Assembly (NCBI RefSeq): GCF_004116725.1
Contig: NZ_PDKG01000003.1
Location: forward strand, 1 to 64,000
Direction of reading: 5' to 3'
DNA length: 64,000 bases
From: Arcobacter sp. CECT 8986
GTDB taxonomy: Bacteria > Campylobacterota > Campylobacteria > Campylobacterales > Arcobacteraceae
Positions 24,677 to 26,006 of the stretch are shown in pieces (the first letter of the stretch is position 1; the number at the start of each line of letters is the position of its first letter). Below the pieces are notes generated by a model. The model did not search any database. It worked only from the letters and a program-made list of their open reading frames with translations, and was not told the origin of the DNA. The translations under genes were made by a program, and so were the position numbers.

Positions 24677-25012
24677 CTAAATTTTTGTTAATTTATCTTG
24701 AACAAAATCGCTATATAATCCTAAAACTTTTTTTCTTTTTTCTTCAGTAAAAATAGAGATTCCAACTTTTTTTAATTTCTTTTCTAATTGATCATCAATA
24801 TGAGGAACAATCAAAACATTAAAATTATTAGATTTAAATAACTTAACAATTTCATCTTCAACATTTTCATGTATTCTATTTTCCATTAATTCAACAGAAC
24901 TAATAGTTTGACCTGTAAGATTTAAAACAGTAAAGTAATTAGCTTCTTTAACATCAGGAGCAACATTTGACATATAACTTAGATTTTCTATTGTAGGAAA
25001 TACAATTCTCAT
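24677..25012 (-). CDS. NifX/NifB-type dinitrogenase cofactor-domain protein (probable)
   Basis: 111 residues. The start MRIVFPTIENLSYMSNVAPD followed by a strand-rich region (YFTVLNLTGQTISSVELMEN) and VLIVPHIDDQLEKKLKKVGI resembles the RNase H-like fold of the NifX/NafY/YaaC group that binds iron or iron-molybdenum cofactors or acts as a small chaperone. The assignment rests on fold-like pattern recognition only. Small proteins of this type often sit beside DUF134 regulators, and here a DUF134 gene is divergent to it. No nitrogenase gene is nearby, so a role in nitrogen fixation should not be assumed. Confidence 0.6.
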   Translation of the reverse strand: MRIVFPTIENLSYMSNVAPDVKEANYFTVLNLTGQTISSVELMENRIHENVEDEIVKLFKSNNFNVLIVPHIDDQLEKKLKKVGISIFTEEKRKKVLGLYSDFVQDKLTKI

Positions 25013-25111
25013 AATTGAGCCTTTAATAATGATAATTTTATAAAAGGATTTTGTAAAAACTTAATAAAAAATAATATGTTTAACAAAAGTTTTTACAAAA
25101 TTTAATGGTGT

Positions 25112-25117
25112 TATAAT
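25112..25117 (+). promoter_or_regulatory. -10 box for a possible non-coding RNA
   Basis: TATAAT in the context GTTATAATTTAG, followed 7 bases later by GACCAAGAGAGG, where a transcript could begin. No clear -35 box. Confidence 0.4.
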
Positions 25118-25124
25118 TTAGATT

Positions 25125-25363
25125 GACCAAGAGAGGAGTGTTATTTGTATGTTAGGCTAGACAACTAAACAAAATGACCAATCTAATTATATTTCTAATC
25201 ATATATTCCAATCAAGCTTAACTCTTTAAACTAAGAATAATTTGAGAGAGCGGGTTCACTTAGTTTTATTTATTAAATTCACAAAATTTTTATATGAGTT
25301 AAGTCTTGTGAACATATGACCGTATAATAACATTAATTCGGTCATATGTCAAGTATTTTTTTA
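25125..25363 (+). ncRNA. Possible structured RNA in the gap before the DUF134 gene
   Basis: The 403-base gap 25013-25415 holds no gene but shows layered complementarity: GACC near the start with GGTC at 25340-25343; AGTGTTATT (about 25137-25145) with AATAACATT; CTTAACTC with GAGTTAAG; AAACTAAG with CTTAGTTT nested inside. A TATAAT stands just before it and an inverted repeat plus T7 closes it. It does not match tmRNA, 4.5S RNA or RNase P RNA as I know them. It may be an RNA of about 240 bases, the leader of the DUF134 gene, or chance structure in AT-rich DNA. Confidence 0.35.
25312..25362 (+). terminator. 11-bp perfect inverted repeat followed by T7
   Basis: ACATATGACCG at 25312-25322 and CGGTCATATGT at 25339-25349 are exact complements with a 16-base spacer; a run of seven T begins 7 bases later. 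It could terminate an upstream RNA, or serve as an operator for the DUF134 regulator 50 bases downstream. Confidence 0.45.
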
Positions 25364-25415
25364 GATTTTTAATAAAAATATGATAAAATCCTAAATTAAT
25401 AATTTAAGGAATTAA

Positions 25416-26006
25416 ATGCCAAGAGAAAAACTAGAAAGAAAATTAAATTTAAAGCCAGTAAGTAAATACTTTGGACCTAAAGATATCAAAGCTAGTGAAG
25501 ATGTAGTTTTACTTCATGAAGAGCTAGAAGCAATACATTTAATGGACTCTTTTTGTATGTATCAAGAAGATGCAGCAAAAAAAATGAATGTATCAAGAGC
25601 AACATTTGCAAGAATTATTAAAAGTGCAAGAAAGAAGATTTCACTTGCATTAATAACAGGTAAAAATATAAAAGTTCATGAAGTAAAAAATGAGTTTAGA
25701 ATTGCTGTATGTTCAAATAAAGAAGACCAACTAGATTATGCAGAAGCTGAAGCTGAATATATTTGGATTATACTTATTAAAGATTATAAACTTACATCTC
25801 AAAGCTGTATCAAAAATCCAATGTATAGAAATGAAGATGAAGCAACATGTAATGTTCTTCCAGAGATTTTATATGATTATAAAGTTAACTACTTTATGAT
25901 AAAAGATATCGATTATGATTTAAAAATTTCTTTAATTGCTAAAGGAATTTATCCAATGCTTAAAGAAAAAATTGAATTAGATTCACTTGTTGATATTTTT
26001 CAATAG
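25416..26006 (+). CDS. DUF134 family DNA-binding protein
   Basis: 196 residues. N-terminal DUF134 pattern (YFGPKDIKASEDVVLLHEEL, then EAIHLMDSFCMYQEDAAKKM) with a sigma-factor-like helix-turn-helix (NVSRATFARIIKSARKKISLAL). The C-terminal half is longer than in minimal DUF134 proteins and not recognised (VCSNKEDQLDYAEAEAEYIW onwards). Likely a transcription regulator; its target is unknown. It starts MPREKLERKLNLKP after AAGGA. Confidence 0.82.
   Translation: MPREKLERKLNLKPVSKYFGPKDIKASEDVVLLHEELEAIHLMDSFCMYQEDAAKKMNVSRATFARIIKSARKKISLALITGKNIKVHEVKNEFRIAVCSNKEDQLDYAEAEAEYIWIILIKDYKLTSQSCIKNPMYRNEDEATCNVLPEILYDYKVNYFMIKDIDYDLKISLIAKGIYPMLKEKIELDSLVDIFQ

Follow-up and report, generated by a model that had tools for sequence, protein, structure and literature searches.

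A conserved folded RNA, most likely encoded opposite a DUF134 gene in Arcobacter, may well be a small regulatory RNA

Background

Among the small regulatory RNAs of Firmicutes, FsrA serves in iron control. According to the parts of PMC8216469 that deal with these RNAs, RoxS stands under NO- and redox-responsive regulators, and both RoxS/RsaE and FsrA have C-rich pairing regions in a folded RNA. In Campylobacterota, the RepG small RNA of Helicobacter pylori has a C/U-rich loop and, as described in the sections of its study that concern us, about 120 genomes were searched for it, Arcobacter included (PMC8295292). The pertinent sections of Stav et al. 2019 cover 38 intergenic regions of Arcobacter sp. 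L and report that most of the remaining novel motifs were confined to Arcobacter, where they are left unnamed (PMC6429828).

Here we describe the gap at 25013-25415 between a minus-strand gene for a NifX-like protein and a plus-strand gene for a DUF134 protein in Arcobacter sp. CECT 8986. The window is the whole stretch of DNA that was analysed, namely, the first 64,000 nucleotides of contig NZ_PDKG01000003.1. Comparisons were made within a family set of 104 genomes, where G000 is the window's own genome, g1 is its genus, and the other g numbers are further genera. As far as those sections of Stav et al. 2019 go, the gap may be among their Arcobacter motifs (PMC6429828). Sequence comparison indicates that the gap is most likely the source of a minus-strand RNA, conserved and folded and about 280 bases long, and this RNA may well be a small regulatory RNA. 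The predicted RNA is like RoxS/RsaE and FsrA in its C-rich regions but it belongs to another phylum, its regulator would be a DUF134 protein, no Rfam match links them, and the searches described below found no convincing target. It is like RepG, a Campylobacterota small RNA with a C/U-rich loop, and the g14 RNAs have a variable poly-C tract; however, to go by the same sections of the RepG study, in RepG the loop in use is that of the terminator, and its gene sits between different neighbours, whereas here the C/U-rich loops are in hairpins A and B. The comparison with RoxS, FsrA, and RepG, as we draw it, is one of manner of working and not of kinship.

Results and discussion

The features of the gap and of its two neighbours are collected in Table 1.

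Table 1. Positions in the window of the genes, predicted RNA, promoter-like elements, and palindromes
Feature	Position	Strand	Remarks
NifX-like protein	24677..25012	-	PF02579, 26.0 bits (cut-off 26.3); next minus-strand gene
Predicted RNA, 277 nt	25041..25317	-	Start near 25317, to T-run after hairpin C; both ends predicted from promoter position, alignments, and folds of relatives
Hairpin C, terminator-like	25048..25101	-	15 perfect A/T-rich pairs, then CCUUUU
Extended -10-like TGTTATAAT	25109..25117	+	TATAAT in 6/6 g1 genomes, TG in 4/6, by reading
Hairpin B	25111..25192	-	No differences among 6 g1 genomes in GUCUAGCC (25162-25155) or CACUCCUCUCUU (25140-25129); model R2
Hairpin A	25217..25303	-	Loop GAACCCGCUCUCUC, C/U-rich, inside 25258-25236, the same in all 6 g1 genomes
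Operator-like palindrome 2, CGGTCATATGTTCA on minus strand	25309..25322		Over predicted start site
Sigma70-type promoter TTGACA-17-TATTAT	25324..25352	-	-35 at 25352-25347; -10 at 25329-25324, TG ahead; 11/12 matches
Operator-like palindrome 1, TTGACATATGACCG on minus strand	25339..25352		Over -35
Extended -10-like TGATAAAAT ahead of DUF134 gene	25381..25389	+	Candidate; similar elements in relatives, by reading
DUF134 protein, putative DNA-binding regulator	25416..26006	+	PF02001, 61.5 bits; divergent

A hidden protein gene was rejected because the gap has no open reading frame of at least 60 amino acids in the window. Stop-to-stop stretches over part of the RNA in g14 (92 amino acids in L054 and 75 in L055, broken in L053) and over the RNA in g15 (63 at the longest, in L057 only) are taken as chance. 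The initial annotation could name no common housekeeping RNA that the region resembles, and Rfam 15 (4227 families) at the gathering cut-off gave no match in the window and none in 10 related loci, and with lax limits the best E values were 7.2 at the locus and 2.7 in L045. It had also proposed that the 5' and 3' ends pair as in 6S-type rods, and the likeness to 6S RNA (RF00013) does extend to size and to a rod-like look on paper. However, the 6S model found no match in the window, nor at the locus with lax limits, and the pairing segments AGTGTTATT/AATAACATT are, by reading of the alignment, altered in G001 and G004 and missing in G003. The closed rod is therefore not conserved, and instead of one with a central bubble there are separate hairpins on the opposite strand. 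The only 6S match in G000 at E<=1 is elsewhere, at C1:19564-19739 on the minus strand (L112); it is full-length, with an E value of 1.8e-5 and 35.1 bits against a cut-off of 46.4, and matches, all below the Rfam cut-off, were found in three of the six genus genomes (G000, G005, and G004). This is probably the 6S gene of the genus. The absence of a match at the locus and this sub-threshold match elsewhere led us to reject 6S RNA for the gap.

Ten sigma70-type promoter matches were found in the region, where shuffling leads one to expect 11.1, and the weight therefore rests on conservation; the minus-strand promoter in Table 1 is the best of the ten. The palindromes over its -35 and predicted start site are each TGAACATATGTTCA-like and their CATATG cores are 30 bp apart. 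The initial annotation had taken an 11-bp inverted repeat with seven T residues as closing the RNA. The repeat (25312-25322 with 25339-25349) and the T-run (25356-25362) are present but they are better read as the minus-strand promoter and its paired palindromes, the repeat being there because two palindromic sites stand in tandem. The T-run is poorly kept, with seven T in G000 and G003, six in G001, five in G005, four in G004, and an interruption in G002. Among the other complementary segments that it had listed, CTTAACTC (25217-25224) with GAGTTAAG (25296-25303) and AAACTAAG (25228-25235) with CTTAGTTT (25259-25266) are present, but GACC/GGTC is a match of four bases only, and AGTGTTATT/AATAACATT are complementary at 8/9 positions with the second half lying within the -10 region of the minus-strand promoter.

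The paired palindromes go with DUF134 genes across the family. A DUF134 protein search gave 57 places in 49 of the 104 genomes, and upstream stretches were taken for 50 of these places. By script count, TTGACATATG was upstream of all 50 genes, and the CATATG cores were 29-31 bp apart in 47; the remaining three (G003, G035, and G028) have a single core. In G003 the distal site and the -10 are lost, by reading of the alignment, and its TTGACA may have a new -10 (TAATAA) downstream. A strict pair pattern was found in 37/104 genomes, all of them from the 49 genomes in which DUF134 was matched and none from the other 55, and its reversed control gave 0. Of the 41 places with the strict pair, 38 adjoin a DUF134 gene by coordinates; G099 C1:259928 (L164) and G036 C14:22296 (L163) lie away from DUF134, and in G025 the pair is on a different contig from that of the DUF134 match. 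The comparison of genomes demonstrates the link of the paired palindromes to DUF134, and from it the DUF134 protein probably controls the minus-strand promoter. The isolated pairs at L163 and L164 possibly mark further regulated genes, or they are there by chance. A different arrangement was seen in g9 (L058 and L060), where three CATATG sites stand in a row before the NifX-like gene and the leader is shorter.

The fold favours the minus strand. With single sequences, the minus-strand fold of 25100-25366 had a z of -3.0 with 0/200 shuffles as good, and the plus-strand fold of 25119-25366 a z of -2.0 with 6/200. Leaders from 6 g1 genomes and 16 g19 genomes were aligned and folded against 100 column shuffles, and z was -5.80 on the minus strand against -3.05 on the plus strand in g1 and -7.61 against -3.93 in g19. 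None of the four alignment folds was equalled by a column shuffle; on the plus strand this is to be expected, given that a real stem leaves a complement that can pair as well. In hairpin B of g19, standard pairs make up 268/271 cells when read as minus and 248/271 when read as plus, and a recount on a separate alignment, read as minus, gave 20 G-U, 0 A-C, and 4 other cells. Hairpin B of g1, read as minus, gave 18 G-U, 0 A-C, and 2 other cells, of which the invariant G-U pair is biased because folding of g1 used the minus strand, and 12 of the 18 G-U cells are in columns that have Watson-Crick pairs in other species. Together, the two genera have 38 G-U cells and 0 A-C. Hairpin A of g19 is weak and poorly aligned (78.8% of cells pair; 13 G-U versus 5 A-C; 164/208 standard pairs as minus and 156 as plus) and, therefore, the strand evidence rests on hairpin B. 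Compensating base changes in the stems, which the initial annotation had wanted sought among relatives, are seen in g19: hairpins A and B together have 31 pairs, in which 90.2% of cells pair, and 9 of these pairs have changed on both sides against a shuffled mean of 5.2; 1/500 shuffles reached 9. The covariation score was 0.205, compared to 0.133 when shuffled and 0.046-0.067 when slid. An alignment of mixed genera gave a consensus fold without any pairs. Comparison within genera establishes the stems and, through hairpin B, their strand. The RNA of about 240 bases that was first proposed is, then, about the right size and its evolving stems are supported, but its strand and ends are not.

Hairpin B is also under selective constraint, as comparison shows. 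Its identity over the 15 pairs of g1 genomes is 90-100%, compared to 33-80% at fourfold-degenerate sites of the DUF134 gene, and the means over 120 pairs of g19 genomes are 0.82 for hairpin B, 0.95 for its loop, and 0.49 for fourfold sites. Conservation is highest in single-stranded, C/U-rich parts: in g1 these are GAACCCGCUCUCUC and CACUCCUCUCUU, and in g19 a loop of about 35 nt, AAUUGUCUUUUCCCUAGUCAUUAC...CACUC, varies across the 16 genomes by one substitution and by slight differences in length. The counterpart sequence in g10 is CACUCCUUAGUCAUAAUC. Three related species of g14 (L053-L055) have a C-run of 5, 9 or 10, like a length-variable tract. The loops diverge between genera. Agreement in promoter, position, and architecture is the reason for treating the leaders of different genera as a single kind of RNA. 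Kinship in sequence is suggested between g1 and g15 only. Model R2, run on 13 sources, scored 16.4-20.2 bits at the three g15 places in synteny, all on the same strand, and matched nothing else, with no match in the g10, g14, and g19 sources given; in a separate search it found the 6 g1 genomes and two weak matches in g11. Model R1 found 16/16 g19 genomes and four weak matches, and in other genera it gave two off-position matches of 20.7 and 17.8 bits at clearly unrelated places. Since R1 can score that much at unrelated places, the R2 result rests on position and strand and not on score. A B-like hairpin is retained in g15.

If the RNA were a leader acting in cis it should always be upstream of the gene that it regulates. 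The NifX-like gene is downstream in 6/6 g1, 16/16 g19, one g10, and both g9 genomes examined, but it is absent within 1,500 nt in g14 (3/3) and g15 (2/2 tested). The g14 and g15 RNAs face aroC in 4/5 cases, and aroC was not found in the L055 stretch. Hairpin C (GUAAAAAC...GUUUUUAC), which is A/T-rich with a long loop, is, by script count, in 13/13 leaders of g1, g10, g14, and g15 and in none of the 16 g19 or two g9 leaders; a T-run follows it in most of the 13, not in L057. Thus, g14 and g15 keep TTGACATATG and hairpin C without the NifX-like gene, and this persistence favours a small RNA controlled by DUF134 over a mere leader. By comparison, the RNA has what a small RNA should have, its own conserved promoter and a conserved fold.

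Six genomes per query were searched for targets with the reverse complements of the g1 hairpin B strand and the g19 loop. The g1 query gave 46 matches, 6 of them self, versus 13 in the control, and the g19 query gave 55, 6 of them self, versus 49 in the control. Most of the 24 non-self loci inspected per search are inside coding frames. Matches at possible start sites (L090 and L095; L146, L158, and L160) are each in one genome, and no complementary site common to orthologous start codons was found among the loci inspected, the pattern searches having low power. In the six g1 genomes, sequences like AAGAGAGGAGTGTTA, which is complementary to the hairpin B strand, turned up about three times as often as the reversed control (40 non-self versus 13).

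What the DUF134 protein responds to may be read from its other loci. At the second DUF134 locus of G000 (C3:125022; L162, C3:120500-126500), where the protein also has a C-terminal Nitro_FeMo-Co domain (29.3 bits, cut-off 26.3), the paired site faces genes for DUF4492, cydA and cydB of cytochrome bd, and a NifX-like protein. In G006 (L165, C1:797000-802500) the paired site faces DUF4492-cydA-cydB-NifX-like genes, with 44-75% protein identity to the Pfam-scanned G000 genes, and by eye DUF4492-like starts were seen in other genera too. A DUF134 regulon that covers cytochrome bd is likely from this arrangement and, with cyd genes beside these further DUF134 loci, a respiratory or redox signal is probable. 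In the literature search DUF4492 went unmentioned, papers with DUF134 as a whole word were, by title, on archaeal G-quadruplexes and a Bacillus phage region, and UPF0251 appeared, in the excerpt concerned, as an entry in a mutation table.

The explanation that we propose, with an even chance in our judgement of being right, is a divergent regulatory locus in which a minus-strand promoter switched by DUF134 makes a structured RNA of about 277 nt that acts in trans. We infer transcription, DUF134 binding, termination at hairpin C, trans action, a signal, and targets as follows. The DUF134 protein would bind the two palindromes, 30 bp apart and over the -35 and start site, and its binding would switch the promoter in reply to a signal that is probably respiratory or redox. 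The transcript would expose C/U-rich loops as single strands, and most of it would end at hairpin C, with read-through also expressing the NifX-like partner protein. The RNA would pair in trans with G-rich or ribosome-binding sequences of mRNAs.

The main rival to this small RNA is a cis-acting leader, where the same RNA is only the 5' untranslated region of the NifX-like gene and controls it by attenuation at hairpin C or by masking of the ribosome site, with no trans action. We regard it as rather unlikely. It would explain why the NifX-like gene is downstream in all the g1, g19, g10, and g9 genomes examined and why the g19 transcript, without a hairpin C, would run into that gene; moreover, several g1 folds allow pairing between the CCUUU that follows hairpin C and the AAAGG of the ribosome site. 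It does not explain why promoter and hairpin C remain in g14 and g15 where the gene is gone, the loops differ between genera, unlike a ligand-binding core, and Rfam has no match. Less probable, and in our view quite unlikely, is that the RNA titrates or scaffolds a protein and does not pair with mRNAs: most seeds are shorter than the near-invariant g19 loop with its 35 nt or so, and the searches ended without targets, but no known protein-binding signature was recognised and the loops diverge between genera.

The remaining two alternatives dispense with a minus-strand RNA altogether. The initial annotation ran the RNA on the plus strand from TATAAT at 25112-25117, which exists and is kept in 6/6 g1 genomes, to the repeat with its seven T residues, and the plus-strand alignment folds did beat all 100 shuffles. 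However, on that strand the 38 G-U cells of hairpin B would turn into A-C mismatches, the T-run is poorly kept, a conserved paired site and its promoter account for the repeat, and an equivalent -10 was not seen in g14 or g15. The G-U/A-C counts, the paired sites, and the T-run together make a plus-strand RNA with a terminator very improbable. Very improbable, too, is that the conserved stretch consists of binding sites and spacer that act as DNA, without a functional RNA. The palindromes are DNA sites and the arms of hairpin C could be such sites as well, but the stems tolerate G-U and change on two sides, and near-invariant loops are inside them. Separately from these readings, TGTTATAAT on the plus strand is possibly an antisense promoter.

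Conclusions

We tentatively propose, as a possibility that falls short of an even chance, that DUF134 proteins are respiratory or redox regulators that bind TGAACATATGTTCA sites in pairs and have cytochrome bd under their control. Some Arcobacteraceae would carry a copy, duplicated or retargeted, that controls C/U-rich small RNAs of a new family. These would be functional counterparts of RoxS or of the small RNA FnrS, with loops that change by genus while the promoter stays fixed. DUF134, a domain of unknown function in Pfam, gains a testable DNA site and, hence, a testable role and a tie to cytochrome bd, and the Campylobacterota gain a well-conserved candidate for a regulatory RNA. With loops that are near-invariant within a genus and different between genera behind the same promoter, this RNA would suit the study of how the pairing sites of small RNAs change.
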